DNA of 64,000 bases from Palleronia pontilimi (GTDB lineage Bacteria; Pseudomonadota; Alphaproteobacteria; Rhodobacterales; Rhodobacteraceae). Positions 50,381 to 62,767 of the stretch are shown here, piece after piece. A model generated the notes under the pieces. That model ran no database searches. It was given only the letters and a program-made list of their open reading frames with translations, and had not been told where the DNA came from. Every line of letters starts with the position of its first letter. Positions within the stretch are counted from its first letter, which is position 1. The position numbers and the translations under genes were made by a program. The DNA is taken from assembly GCF_016412875.1 (NCBI RefSeq), contig NZ_JAEKPD010000015.1:62001-126000 (forward strand), written 5' to 3'.

Positions 50381-51643
50381 ATGTCCGAGTCGCGCAAGGT
50401 CAAAACCCGCCGTGTGTTCTACCTGCCGGGCTACGATCCGATCCACCCCCGCCGCTACCGCGAGCTCTACCGCAAGGAAGGGCGCGCGCAGGCAGCACTT
50501 CGCGGCTACGAGATCGGGATAAAGCCGCGGCCGGGCAAGCATTCCGGTTGGGACGTGGGCGCCCGGATCGAGGGCGAGACGACGCTGTCCAGCGTCGAGG
50601 TGATGGTGTGGTCCGACATCGTGCGCAGCTCCATGTCCGGTGGCATCGCGGCGACCTATGGCCAGCTGGTCAGGACGGCTTGGGTCTATATCACGTCGGG
50701 CGCGCTGCGGCGGCTGATGTGGCTGCGTAAGGGTCCGGTCATCGCGGCGCTTTACCCGGTGGGGATGCTGCTCGCGCAATTGCTGATCGCGCTTCTGCTC
50801 GGCCGCTTGCTGGCAGTCGCGGTGGCGGGGCTGCTGGACGCCGCCCTTGGGCTGGCGGGCCTTGCCCTTGGTCCGGTGAACGCGCCGCTGCAGATCCTGG
50901 TGGGTGCGCTCGTGATGGTCGGGGTGTTGAGGTTCTTCCGCCGGATCGACAACCGGCTATACGCCTATTACCTGATGCACGACTACGCCTATTCCGCCCA
51001 GTCGAAAGGGGCCAACCCGCCGCAGCTGGAAGCGCGGATGTCCGAATTCGGCCAAACCATCGCCGCTGCGTTGGCGACGGACGTGGACGAGGTCCTGGTC
51101 GTCGGCCATTCTTCCGGCGCGCATCTGGGCGTGTCGATCCTTGCCGACCTGATCCGCAACGGCCAGGTGCCTGCCAACGGGCCCGAGCTGTCGTTCCTGT
51201 CGCTCGGCCAGGTGATCCCCATGGTCAGCTTCCTGCCGAAGGCCGATCGCCTGCGCGCCGATCTGCACCTGCTGGCGCAGACCGATCGGCTGGCCTGGGT
51301 GGATGTGACCGCGCCCGGGGACGGCTGCGCGTTCGCGCTTTGCGACCCGGTGGCCGTGTCGGGCGTCGCACCCGAGCGGGGCGGGCGCTGGCCGCTGATC
51401 CTGTCGGCGGCCTTCACCAAGACGCTGAAGCCCGAGACGTTCGAAGCCCTGCGCTGGCGCTTCTTCCGGCTGCATTTCCAGTATCTTTGCGCCTTCGACA
51501 ACCTGCCGGACGACCCCGGCGCCTATGATTATTTCGCCGTCACGGCGGGGCCCAGGACGCTGGCCGCGCGGTTCGGGCGCCGCGCGCCGTCGAAATCGCG
51601 CATCGACGTCGCGGCGTCGCGGCACACCTCCATGGCGGCATGA
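50381..51643 (+). CDS. Alpha/beta-hydrolase-like membrane protein coupled to a cytochrome P450
   Basis: The 420-residue protein starts MSESRKVKTRRVFYLPGYDP. It has two to three central hydrophobic helices (about residues 123-188) and a possible nucleophile elbow VLVVGHSSGAHLGVS near residue 240, which suggests an alpha/beta-hydrolase fold. The catalytic acid and histidine are not clear to me. GAAGGAG precedes the ATG. The stop overlaps the P450 start (ATGA), so the two products are likely made in step and may act on the same hydrophobic substrate at the membrane. Confidence 0.75.
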   Translation: MSESRKVKTRRVFYLPGYDPIHPRRYRELYRKEGRAQAALRGYEIGIKPRPGKHSGWDVGARIEGETTLSSVEVMVWSDIVRSSMSGGIAATYGQLVRTAWVYITSGALRRLMWLRKGPVIAALYPVGMLLAQLLIALLLGRLLAVAVAGLLDAALGLAGLALGPVNAPLQILVGALVMVGVLRFFRRIDNRLYAYYLMHDYAYSAQSKGANPPQLEARMSEFGQTIAAALATDVDEVLVVGHSSGAHLGVSILADLIRNGQVPANGPELSFLSLGQVIPMVSFLPKADRLRADLHLLAQTDRLAWVDVTAPGDGCAFALCDPVAVSGVAPERGGRWPLILSAAFTKTLKPETFEALRWRFFRLHFQYLCAFDNLPDDPGAYDYFAVTAGPRTLAARFGRRAPSKSRIDVAASRHTSMAA

Positions 51644-53001
51644 CGCTGCCACCCAAGCCGCCCGCGCGGCCCGACCGGGTGTCGCTGTGGCGCTACGCCA
51701 AGCTCTTCCGCGCCGATATCCTGTCGGCCCAGCCCGCGCGGCTCTATCGCGCCTGGATGGCCGAGTTCCGCACCCCCTTCTTTCGATCCTTCCTGGTCAA
51801 CGACCCGGCCCTGGTGCGGCTGGTCCTGAAAGAGCGGCCGGCCGATTTCCCCAAGGCCGACCGCGTGAGCGAAGGGCTGCGCCCGCTGCTGGGCCGCTCG
51901 ATGTTCGTGACCAACGGCGCCGAATGGCAGCGCCAGCGCCGCATCGTGGACCCGGCCTTCGAAGGCGGGCGCCTGCGCGACACCTTTCCCGCCATGCTGG
52001 ACGCGGCGCGGGCGGCCAGCGCCCGCCTCGCGCCGGGGCGCAGGGATATCGAGCCCGAGACCAGCCATGCCGCCGCCGACGTGATCTTCCGCACGCTGTT
52101 CTCGATCCCCATCGAGCACGAAACCGCGCGCGCGGTCTTCGACGAATTCCGCGCCTTCCAGCGCGAACAGCCGCTGATGAACCTGGGGGCCTTCGTCAGG
52201 CTGCCTGCCTGGATGCCGCGCTTCCATCGTCGCCGCACCCGCGCCGCGGCCGAGCGCATCCGCGCGCTGATCGCGGCCCTGGTCGACGCGCGGATGCAGC
52301 GCATCGCCGACGGCGCGGCTCCGGACGACCTGGCGACGAAGATCATGACCACGCCCGATCCCGCGACGGGGGCGCGCTTCGACCAGGGCGAGATGGTGGA
52401 TCAGGTGGCGATCTTCTTCCTGGCGGGGCACGAAACCAGCGCGTCGGCGCTGGCCTGGACGCTCTATCTTCTGGCCAGCCACCCGGACTGGCAGGATCGC
52501 GTCGCGGACGAGGCGCGGGATTTCATGGCCGACCCGGTTTTCGCCAACCTGTCACGCATGCGCGTCACCCGCGACGTGTTCCGCGAGGCGCTGCGCCTCT
52601 ATCCTCCGGTGCCGATGATGGTGCGCGAAACCGTGCAGCCCGAGCCATTGCGCGACCGCTGGGCGCGGACCGGCGATCTGGTCGTCCTGAGCCCGTGGCA
52701 CCTGCATCGCCAGTCCCGGCTCTGGGACGATCCCGACGCGTTCGACCCGGGCCGTTGGCAGACGGAAAACGGCAAAAGCTGCGCGCGCGACGCCTATATC
52801 CCCTTCAGCGCGGGTCCCCGGGCCTGCACCGGCGCGGGGTTCGCCATGGCCGAAGGGGTCGTGCTGCTGGCCGCGATCCTGGCCGACTGGCGCGTCGCGC
52901 CTGTGGAGGCTCGCGTCCCGCAGCCGCAGGCGCAATTGACGGTCCGATCGCGTAACGGGATCTGGCTCGAGCTCCAGCGCAGATCGTCCGACGCGACCTG
53001 A
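51640..53001 (+). CDS. Cytochrome P450
   Basis: The 453-residue protein has all P450 hallmarks: the I-helix motif AGHETSAS (about residue 262), the K-helix EALRLYPPVPMM with ExxR, and the heme loop FSAGPRACTGAGFAMAE with the thiolate ligand C396. No membrane anchor is present, which suggests a soluble bacterial enzyme; its helices resemble the fatty-acid/alkane-type CYP group, but the substrate is unknown. It is translationally coupled to the hydrolase-like gene. No ferredoxin or reductase gene is adjacent. Confidence 0.93.
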   Translation: MTLPPKPPARPDRVSLWRYAKLFRADILSAQPARLYRAWMAEFRTPFFRSFLVNDPALVRLVLKERPADFPKADRVSEGLRPLLGRSMFVTNGAEWQRQRRIVDPAFEGGRLRDTFPAMLDAARAASARLAPGRRDIEPETSHAAADVIFRTLFSIPIEHETARAVFDEFRAFQREQPLMNLGAFVRLPAWMPRFHRRRTRAAAERIRALIAALVDARMQRIADGAAPDDLATKIMTTPDPATGARFDQGEMVDQVAIFFLAGHETSASALAWTLYLLASHPDWQDRVADEARDFMADPVFANLSRMRVTRDVFREALRLYPPVPMMVRETVQPEPLRDRWARTGDLVVLSPWHLHRQSRLWDDPDAFDPGRWQTENGKSCARDAYIPFSAGPRACTGAGFAMAEGVVLLAAILADWRVAPVEARVPQPQAQLTVRSRNGIWLELQRRSSDAT

Positions 53002-54912: not shown

Positions 54913-55392
54913 CTATTTTCTGAAGGCGTCCAGGCTGACGACATCGGCCTTGGGCTTGCTGTCGGGCTTCGGGTCCGGCTGCGCGTCGTCGTCCAGCGTG
55001 ATCATCTGGGCGGGCGGCGCGTCGCTGTCATCTTCGCTGTCCTGGGTCTCGAAGCGCAGGCCGAATTCGACCGATGGATCCACGAAGGTGCGGATCGCGT
55101 CGTAGGGAATGTACAGCGGCTCGGGACTGTCGCCGAAATTCAGCGTGACCGAAAAACCTTCCTCCGTCACGTCGAGCCCGTCGAACCAGTGCTGCATGAC
55201 CACGGTCATCTCGCCCGGATAGCGGTCGGACAACCAGTCCGCGATTTCCACGTCCGGGTGCATCGTGTCGAAGGTGATGAAGAAGTGGTGATCGCCCGGC
55301 AGGCCGTTGTCTTTCACGTCCTCCAGGACGCGGCGGATCAGGCCGCGCATGGCGGTGTGCATAAGATTGCCGTAATCGATACTGCGCGTCAT
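54913..55392 (-). CDS. sspB: SspB-alpha, ClpXP adaptor for ssrA-tagged proteins
   Basis: The 159-residue protein matches the alphaproteobacterial SspB group: MRGLIRRVLEDVKDNGLPGDHHFFITFDTM, then ADWLSDRYPGEMTVVMQHWFDGL. A disordered acidic linker leads to the C-terminal ClpX-binding tail VVSLDAFRK, the XB motif. It tethers tmRNA-tagged proteins to the ClpX N-domain for degradation. Notably, the tmRNA gene lies about 0.6 kb upstream on the same strand. Confidence 0.93.
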   Translation of the reverse strand: MTRSIDYGNLMHTAMRGLIRRVLEDVKDNGLPGDHHFFITFDTMHPDVEIADWLSDRYPGEMTVVMQHWFDGLDVTEEGFSVTLNFGDSPEPLYIPYDAIRTFVDPSVEFGLRFETQDSEDDSDAPPAQMITLDDDAQPDPKPDSKPKADVVSLDAFRK

Positions 55393-55485: not shown

Positions 55486-55911
55486 CTAGTCGAGCGTCTC
55501 GTCGGACAGAATGCGCAGCAGCGCGTCTTCGGGCAAGTGGCCGAGTTGGGTGAAGAATCCGAAAAGATCGAACTGGTTGTGCGCTTCGGCGATCTTGCCG
55601 TCGCGAAAGCGCAGCATCGCCTGGCCGGTCAGTGTCAGGGGCTCACCCGTGTCGCGGGCACGGCACTTTGCCCGCACCAGGGCCGACAGCCAATCGTCCT
55701 GCTCGACGGTCTTCAGGATCTCCACGTGGATATCTTCGACCAAGCGCGACATGGCCAGCACCATGGCCTGAAAATCCTCGGGTCGGATGGCCATGTCAGG
55801 GAAAAGACCGTCCGCTTCCGAATCCGCCAGGAAGAAGTCGCCGATCCGGTCGGTCTCGCCCCGCACCCAGATGGTGGCGTAGAAATCCTTCAGTAAATCC
55901 GAATATCCCAT
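55486..55911 (-). CDS. NTF2/SnoaL-like fold protein
   Basis: The 141-residue protein (start MGYSDLLKDFYATIWVRGETDRIGDFF) fits the cone-shaped NTF2/SnoaL fold: an initial helix pair, a beta sheet with MLRFRDGKIAEAHNQFDLFGFFTQLG, and the usual length. Members act as isomerases, cyclases or binding modules and function cannot be assigned. It is a single gene between sspB and the tmRNA, with 93 bases to sspB. The ATG is preceded by GCGGGGACTCCC, a weak ribosome-binding site. Confidence 0.8.
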   Translation of the reverse strand: MGYSDLLKDFYATIWVRGETDRIGDFFLADSEADGLFPDMAIRPEDFQAMVLAMSRLVEDIHVEILKTVEQDDWLSALVRAKCRARDTGEPLTLTGQAMLRFRDGKIAEAHNQFDLFGFFTQLGHLPEDALLRILSDETLD

Positions 55912-55984: not shown

Positions 55985-56310
55985 TCGGAAAAGGGAAAGT
56001 GCAGGCTTCTGTTGCCAGGTGCCTGCGAACCCCGCCTTACGCTGCTAGGCGCAAGGACTTAGATTTCGATTCCTCGAACTGCTTACGCAGCCAGAGCAAC
56101 CGGAGCACGATTGTTGTTGGCAATTGTACTTTTCTGCACCGATATCGGTGGTAGCTCACCGAGACAAAGCAACCCCTTTAGACGTCCGTCGATCCTATTT
56201 CGACCCCATGATCCGCCAACACCGGATGTTTGGTGGAGTCGCCGGGTACCGCCCCCGGGTCCGATCCGCTTATTACGAGCGCGTTTATGTCCATAGTCCC
56301 TTGCGAGACA
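55985..56310 (-). ncRNA. ssrA: Two-piece (circularly permuted) tmRNA; tag ANNNRAPVALAA
   Basis: On the minus strand the acceptor piece comes first. It has a T-arm-like hairpin and ends ...CGACTCCACCA with the encoded CCA at 56233-56231. A 23-base spacer follows, and the coding piece begins at 56207 with GGGGTCGAAATAGGATCGAC. GGGGTCG and CGACTCC pair as a seven-base acceptor stem with one G-U. The tag frame (56121-56086) reads ANNNRAPVALAA and ends with TAA at 56085-56083. A GCAGGC/GCCTGC hairpin (56026-56001) followed by a T-rich run marks the 3' end. The precursor must be cut twice to give the mature two-piece RNA. The exact 5' and 3' ends are estimates. Confidence 0.95.
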
Positions 56311-56315
56311 TTCCG

Positions 56316-56344
56316 TATATGGCGTGAAACGCGGCGTTTTTCAA
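56316..56344 (-). promoter_or_regulatory. Sigma-70-type promoter of the tmRNA
   Basis: On the minus strand TTGAAA (56344-56339) and CATATA (56321-56316) are exactly 17 bases apart and just upstream of the acceptor piece. A start near 56309 would give a short leader. The match is good and the position is as expected for a stable RNA gene. Confidence 0.7.
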
Positions 56345-56351
56345 GGTCCGA

Positions 56352-60959: not shown

Positions 60960-60990
60960 AACGCGGCGGTTTGCGAACTGCCGCGTTTTT
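60960..60990 (+). terminator. Rho-independent terminator after acuI
   Basis: AACGCGGCGGTT and AACTGCCGCGTT form a 12-bp stem with one G-U around TGCG, followed by TTT. It ends the DUF2182 to acuI transcript, so the BCCT gene downstream has its own promoter in the remaining 112 bases. Confidence 0.85.
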
Positions 60991-61102
60991 GGTATCTTGG
61001 CGCGATCTGCTGTTCATCTGGTGCACAATCACCTATGTCGCGGCCTACCCGCGGGGCAGCCAACCCGCGAAGCAAATAAGAATAACGGGAAGGGACACCC
61101 AC

Positions 61103-62767
61103 ATGAAACCACCATTGACCGAACTTGACATCAAGACTTCCGACAGTGGCTTCTACGAAGGCTTCACCAAGCACGTCACGATCACCGCCAAGGTTCTGAT
61201 CGGCGCGCTGATCGTCTGGGCCGTGGCCTTCCCCGAGCAGGCGGGCGCGTTCCTGTCCAATATCAACAGCTTCATCCTGGCGTTCTTCAACGTCTGGTAC
61301 ATCTACGCCATCGCCCTGTTCCTGCTGACCTGCCTGATCCTTGCGGCGATCCCGTCCTCGGGCAAGCTGAAGCTGGGGCTCGAGCACGAAAAGCCGGAAT
61401 TCGGCAATTTCTCTTGGTTTTCCATGATGTTCGGCGCGGGCATCGGCATCGGGATGCTGACCTTCGCCACCGCCGAGCCGCTCTATCACTTCGCCTCGAA
61501 CCCCTCGACCATCCAGGGGATGACCGACGAAAGCGCGGCCAACAACGTGCGCTCGGCGTATCAGTATTCCTTCCTGCACTGGGGTCTGGGCGCCTGGGGC
61601 GCCTATGCGCTGGCGGGCCTGGGACTGGCCTTCTTCAGCTACCGGCGCGGCCTGCCGCTGACCATCCGCTCGTCGCTGACCCCGCTCTTCGGGTCCAGCA
61701 TGGAAGGCAAGTGGGGCCATGTCGTCGACGTGGTTGCCGTGGTCGCCACCGTGCTGGGCGTGGCCCAGACACTGGGCTTCGGGGTCGAGCAGTTCATCGC
61801 CGGGCTCGAACGGATCGGCTTCGGCGGCTGGCTGACCCGCCCCGATGGCGAGGGCGGAACGACCTCGACCACGCTGGGCATCATGTTCGCGCTGATGATC
61901 ATCATGGGCGCGTCGACCCTGTCGGCCCTGTCGGGCGTCGGCAAGGGCATCAAGTGGCTGTCGAACATCAACATGGGCCTGTCCTTCTTCCTGCTGACCT
62001 TCTTCGTCATCTTCGGCTCGACCTTCTTCGGCCTGTCGGCGCTTTTCGTCGGCATCTGGGACTACCTCGTGTCGCTGCCGGCCATGATGTTCACCGTCTG
62101 GGACGCCGAGGCCCCCGGAACCGAGGGTGAGCTTGGTGCGTGGCAATCCTCGTGGTCGGTCTTCTACTGGGCCTGGTGGATCGCGTTCGCGCCCTTCGTG
62201 GGCCTGTTCCTGGCGCGCATCTCGAAGGGACGCACCATCCGCGAATACGTGCTGGGCGCGCTGATCGTCCCCTCGCTCATGTGCTTCGTGTGGTTCGCGC
62301 TGGTCGGCGGCACCGCCATCGACCTGGAGCTGAACGGCAATGCCGGGGGCGCCATCACCGGCGCGGGGCAGGAGGACCAGCTGTTCGCCATGCTGGCCGT
62401 CATGCTGCAACCGACGCTGGCGTGGATCTTCTCGGTGATCGTGGTGGTGCTGCTGCTGACCTACCTGGTCACGTCGGCGGACTCGGCCGTGCTGATCATC
62501 AACACGATCAACGCGGCGGGCGACGAAGGCCCGAAAGCGCGTCCCCACATCATCTTCTGGGGGGCCGCGCTGGCGCTTGTCGTGGGCTCGCTGCTGATCG
62601 GCGGCGGCCTGTCGGCGGTGCAGACCGCGATGGTCATCGGCGCGCTGCCGTTCTCGGCGGTGATGGTGCTGATGTGCTTTGCGCTCTTCAAGGCGATCTG
62701 GCGCGACCACCGGCGCCAGAAGCAGGGCATCCCCGTGGTCTACGAGACCGCGACGCCCGCCGAATAG
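61103..62767 (+). CDS. BCCT family transporter (betaine/choline/DMSP type), first copy
   Basis: The 554-residue carrier has twelve helices. The BCCT hallmarks are MFGAGIGIGMLTFATAEPLYH (about residues 110-130), GFGVEQFIAGLERIG and the aromatic substrate segment WSVFYWAWWIAFAPFVG followed by ISKGRTIREYVLG. The MFGAGIGIGM form suggests Na+ coupling. Directly downstream of dmdA-acuI, DMSP is a likely substrate, but glycine betaine or carnitine are alternatives. GGGAAGGGA precedes the ATG at 61103; the open frame reaches 60971 without similarity. Confidence 0.9.
   Translation: MKPPLTELDIKTSDSGFYEGFTKHVTITAKVLIGALIVWAVAFPEQAGAFLSNINSFILAFFNVWYIYAIALFLLTCLILAAIPSSGKLKLGLEHEKPEFGNFSWFSMMFGAGIGIGMLTFATAEPLYHFASNPSTIQGMTDESAANNVRSAYQYSFLHWGLGAWGAYALAGLGLAFFSYRRGLPLTIRSSLTPLFGSSMEGKWGHVVDVVAVVATVLGVAQTLGFGVEQFIAGLERIGFGGWLTRPDGEGGTTSTTLGIMFALMIIMGASTLSALSGVGKGIKWLSNINMGLSFFLLTFFVIFGSTFFGLSALFVGIWDYLVSLPAMMFTVWDAEAPGTEGELGAWQSSWSVFYWAWWIAFAPFVGLFLARISKGRTIREYVLGALIVPSLMCFVWFALVGGTAIDLELNGNAGGAITGAGQEDQLFAMLAVMLQPTLAWIFSVIVVVLLLTYLVTSADSAVLIINTINAAGDEGPKARPHIIFWGAALALVVGSLLIGGGLSAVQTAMVIGALPFSAVMVLMCFALFKAIWRDHRRQKQGIPVVYETATPAE

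Follow-up and report, generated by a model that had tools for sequence, protein, structure and literature searches.

A permuted two-piece tmRNA gene of Palleronia pontilimi with a recurring asparagine variant of the tag

The window analyzed here is the whole stretch of 64,000 nucleotides from Palleronia pontilimi contig NZ_JAEKPD010000015.1. On its minus strand, at approximately 55992-56348, lies ssrA, a tmRNA gene of the circularly permuted, two-piece type, which was detected by both Rfam and ARAGORN. The alpha_tmRNA model RF01849 matches at 56348-55998 (minus) over its full length (model positions 1-355 of 355) with a score of 300.6 bits (gathering score 50; E 1e-86). RF04321, the general model for permuted tmRNA, covers 56292-56083 with 148.6 bits (E 2.1e-29); the two E-values put a chance match far out of question. 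ARAGORN calls a tmRNA* at 55992-56323 and reads the tag as ANNNRAPVALAA. A first-pass annotation of this DNA had proposed a permuted tmRNA of the alphaproteobacterial type with the same tag and suggested a covariance search with the Rfam alpha-tmRNA model; the full-length match and the ARAGORN call confirm the proposal. Its extent of 55985-56310 identified the right locus with slightly misplaced ends (55992-56323 by ARAGORN, 55998-56348 by Rfam) and gave no strand, which is minus.

Each named element of the gene occurs a single time on the two strands of the window, and all are on the minus strand. The 3' end of the acceptor piece, CGACTCCACCA, consists of CGACTCC and ACCA (56241 to 56231, within the RF01849 alignment), and it is followed by a 23-base spacer (56230 to 56208) that runs from the acceptor CCA to the 5' end of the coding piece, which starts with GGGGTCGAAATAGG (56207 to 56194). 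The 5' strand of the acceptor stem is GGGGTCG (56201-56207), and CGACUCC and GGGGUCG form seven pairs (GC, GC, GU, GC, UA, CG, and GC). The third pair, G-U, is the alanine identity element. Co-folding of the acceptor and coding pieces gives the acceptor stem and the T-arm stem. The tag reading frame (56121 to 56083, from ARAGORN and the sequence itself) encodes ANNNRAPVALAA and ends in a TAA stop. Thus the earlier description of an acceptor end upstream of the coding piece with a seven-base stem holds, with one pair being G-U, as does that of a complete tag frame ending in ALAA. The gene shares with the RF01849 family the permuted order with the spacer in between, the seven-pair stem with the G-U third pair, the encoded CCA, and a tag with a hydrophobic end and final Ala-Ala (ANNNRAPVALAA*) before the stop. 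It differs from the RF01849 consensus in the third tag codon, which is GAC (Asp) in the consensus and AAC (Asn) in the window; the remaining differences are ordinary sequence divergence.

A scan limited to the sigma-70 consensus found no promoter-like site, and the same scan found no terminator-like site on the strand of the gene, the sole such site being on the opposite strand. Permuted two-piece tmRNA of alphaproteobacteria, which the first-pass annotation had called known, is indeed described in passages of reviews and tmRNA database papers (PMC3985003, PMC3968760, PMC4131195, PMC11915505), and the 2025 database paper gives 11,946 unique permuted sequences in one such passage (PMC11915505). 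A two-molecule mature tmRNA is reported for Caulobacter in part of PMC3985003, and Northern bands of 204 and 82 nt for the S. meliloti tmRNA in part of PMC2245857. From the family, as covered in sections of PMC3985003 and PMC11915505, we infer that the RNA at this locus is likewise cut in two. The two pieces would be transcribed together, with the acceptor piece ahead of the coding piece, tRNA-processing enzymes would presumably cut out the 23-base spacer, and base pairing in the acceptor stem and elsewhere would keep the two resulting RNAs together.

Downstream of ssrA on the same strand the gene order is a SnoaL-like protein gene, sspB, and fumC. The SnoaL-like gene (55486-55911, minus; PF07366, E 1.4e-14) lies between ssrA and sspB, and we know of no part for its product in the tmRNA system. 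The sspB gene (54913-55392, minus), 0.6 kb downstream of ssrA, encodes a predicted adaptor that would deliver tagged proteins to ClpXP; it scores 153.6 bits against the PF04386 cut-off of 27 (E 5.5e-45). In a phmmer search of the PDB, the predicted SspB matches 2nys (E 1.1e-35), 2qas (E 1.2e-23), and 2qaz (E 4e-22, named SspB Protein), presumably Agrobacterium and Caulobacter chains. Tag binding by the Palleronia protein is predicted. None of the NCBIfam models matches it, and its assignment as a predicted SspB is based on the Pfam and PDB matches. Elsewhere in the window, a cytochrome P450-like protein (51640-53001, plus) and a BCCT-family transporter (60971-62767, plus) have NCBIfam matches below the curated cut-offs.

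The same genome encodes ClpX and, on contig G000:C1, SmpB (PF01668, 179.4 bits against a cut-off of 27); in the assembly, smpB is not on the contig of ssrA. By analogy with the family, alanine-charged tmRNA together with SmpB would rescue ribosomes stalled on broken messages, and the stalled proteins would gain the tag ANNNRAPVALAA, whose ALAA end would be read by ClpX, probably with the assistance of the SspB encoded just downstream.

The first-pass annotation had noted that the tag lacks acidic residues, which is correct, and had singled it out as worth recording for that reason. We therefore looked at how common the tag is. The RF01849 consensus tag starts with GCA AAC GAC AAC (ANDN), and ANDN becomes ANNN by one base change; residue 3, Asp in most relatives, would have become Asn here by this change, which recurs in the family. 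When 394 genomes of the family, drawn from 393 genera, were searched by pattern, ANDN was found in 244 and ANNN in 30 (window included), so that ANNN is the minority among the 274 genomes matching either pattern. The remaining 120 of 394 matched neither, possibly owing to other tag forms, stop codons, or incomplete assemblies, and the D:N ratio therefore omits other tag forms and missing genes. ARAGORN was applied to 30 loci (the window's and 29 from the other 39 relatives) and read tags in 28 of them (19 ANDN, 7 ANNN, 1 GNDN, and 1 AKDS), with no tag for L003 and L028. Among 14 genomes of the genus, window included, 10 carry ANDN and 4 carry ANNN. A public scan with the pattern ANNN[RHQ]AP[VIM]A[LVF]AA followed by TAA, using one genome per species for 84,980 species, yielded 83 stretches with ANNN tags, 31 of which encode exactly ANNNRAPVALAA. 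The genera in the listed titles (80 of the 83 stretches) are, as we take it, mainly Rhodobacteraceae or members of the Roseobacter group; Neomegalonema and Enemella are among the exceptions. The two best of the 83 ANNN loci by ssrA identity are Palleronia rufa MOLA 401 (93.2% over 309 bases, tag identical to that of the window) and Pseudodonghicola flavimaris IC7 (93.8% over 308 bases, tag ANNNRAPMALAA). Because the variant recurs in relatives, family genomes, and public stretches, we concluded that it is a recurring variant; the genus, family, and public surveys rule out a rare tag, and the case for singling it out falls. In a text search of a paper collection, neither ANNNRAPVALAA nor ANDNRAPVALAA, nor the first ten residues of either, returned a paper, a result that is silent on tag databases, supplements, and papers outside that collection.

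Next, we examined whether the charge at tag position 3 matters. The set consisted of 81 family loci, namely all 30 Asn loci (the window's and 29 others) and 51 of the 244 Asp loci, the latter hand-picked among the matches listed, mainly near the top, and hence non-random. A FumC tree was made by a quick method from this one gene for the 61 of the 81 loci that had an SspB match as well as over 300 FumC residues (the window's locus is absent), and 10 of its 58 inner branches are well supported. The Asp/Asn state requires 15 changes on this tree, at least 5 of them forced by well-supported branches, while shuffles gave means of 17.0 and 17.1 changes, with 78 and 90 of 500 as low as 15. The state is thus nearly unclustered across the FumC tree. 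In a column test of 68 SspB sequences (69 minus the divergent L226; ancestry uncorrected), none of the 319 tests clearly tracked Asp/Asn, and 3 of 40 label shuffles reached as low a minimum. Since Asp/Asn is nearly unclustered on the FumC tree and no SspB column clearly follows it, the simplest reading of these weak tests is near-neutrality of the charge at position 3. Such frequent switching leads one to predict that SspB and ClpXP in this group can do without the charge, and Asn at residue 3 seems tolerated.

The loss of the acidic residue might instead be adaptive, Asn 3 altering the delivery by SspB or a protease and SspB compensating for it. The adjoining tag and SspB genes fit this idea, as does the best SspB column (residue 66, Met; uncorrected p 0.00094), but that value comes from 319 tests with an equally low minimum in 3 of 40 label shuffles and shared ancestry uncontrolled, and the D/N interchange is near random on the FumC tree; we consider adaptation improbable. 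That the gene is instead a degraded copy or a fragment of a tmRNA gene, for example an island attachment-site remnant, is suggested by the frequent use of tmRNA genes as integration sites (mentioned in a passage of PMC11915505), but is dismissed with hardly any doubt because this is the one full-length copy in an assembly rated 98.98% complete, with a full-length model match and both stem and tag intact. A search of the 3.7 Mb assembly gave, besides this single full copy, two other matches of 24 and 17 bases (E 0.309), and alpha_tmRNA is present in all 40 relatives searched. We are thus nearly certain that the locus is an ordinary alphaproteobacterial ssrA gene with the tag ANNNRAPVALAA and a seemingly tolerated Asn at tag position 3. 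It belongs to an RNA family that has been known for a long time and carries a tag variant that recurs; knowledge of tmRNA is unchanged by it, and its use lies in a clean annotation and a natural Asp/Asn series.

The neighborhood of ssrA and sspB is itself widespread. In 69 of 81 family loci (L129 and L175-L254), ssrA is followed on its own strand by sspB, 145 to 5621 bases from the end of the tag frame; for the other 12, the stretch examined, mostly about 7 kb on that side, contains no SspB match. Of 40 relatives, 30 carry sspB no more than 10 kb downstream of ssrA and in the same orientation (7 of 14 in the genus, 10 of 10 in the family, and 13 of 16 that represent sixteen other families in the class); in 22 the distance is no more than 1 kb. 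In the other 10 relatives the two genes are on different contigs (6), more than 500 kb apart (2), or 17.6 kb apart (1), or there is no SspB match (1). These are raw counts. A section of PMC2245857 describes both genes flanking the tmRNA gene as conserved in alphaproteobacteria, with an uncertain functional association, and does not name sspB. Among the literature matches listed (titles and beginnings of abstracts) none was about the ssrA-sspB linkage, which may have been published before. Lessner et al. reportedly studied the alphaproteobacterial adaptor in 2007. Tentatively, and with somewhat more doubt than belief, we suggest that tag and adaptor may form a conserved genetic unit (ssrA then sspB on one strand in many alphaproteobacterial families) in which Asp/Asn is free to switch and the alphaproteobacterial SspB does not read the charge. 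The conserved neighborhood provides a small lead on what keeps the adaptor suited to the tag.

Some tmRNA-like sequences were also observed elsewhere. In a record titled Enemella evansiae TN21-6 (L068) there is a stretch resembling tmRNA that has an ANNN tag, together with a DUF4345 match; E. evansiae is, we assume, an actinobacterium, and the record is perhaps mislabelled or a contaminated assembly. Plasmid matches (H3-H7, H10-H13, H17-H20) include large secondary replicons of Paracoccus and Sinorhizobium that cover 67-69% of the tmRNA query, with no gene listed there in a gene table that omits RNA genes. Four Methylobacterium plasmids match over only about 48 bases, perhaps as attachment-site remnants. 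MT836065.1, an unverified 'Bacteriophage sp.' scaffold from a human faecal sample, has an alpha_tmRNA match of 186.8 bits (1914-2265, minus), a region in which ARAGORN calls nothing; the match may stem from a tmRNA carried by a phage or from bacterial sequence binned in error. Phage DSS3_MAL1 (MN602268.1; 1500-1963 and 2021-2455) carries a permuted tmRNA, annotated in its record, with the tag ANTNAAPMEMAIAA; a GOLLD RNA match (160.5 bits against a gathering score of 150) lies a short way ahead of it, and 33 bases are identical to the tmRNA of the window.
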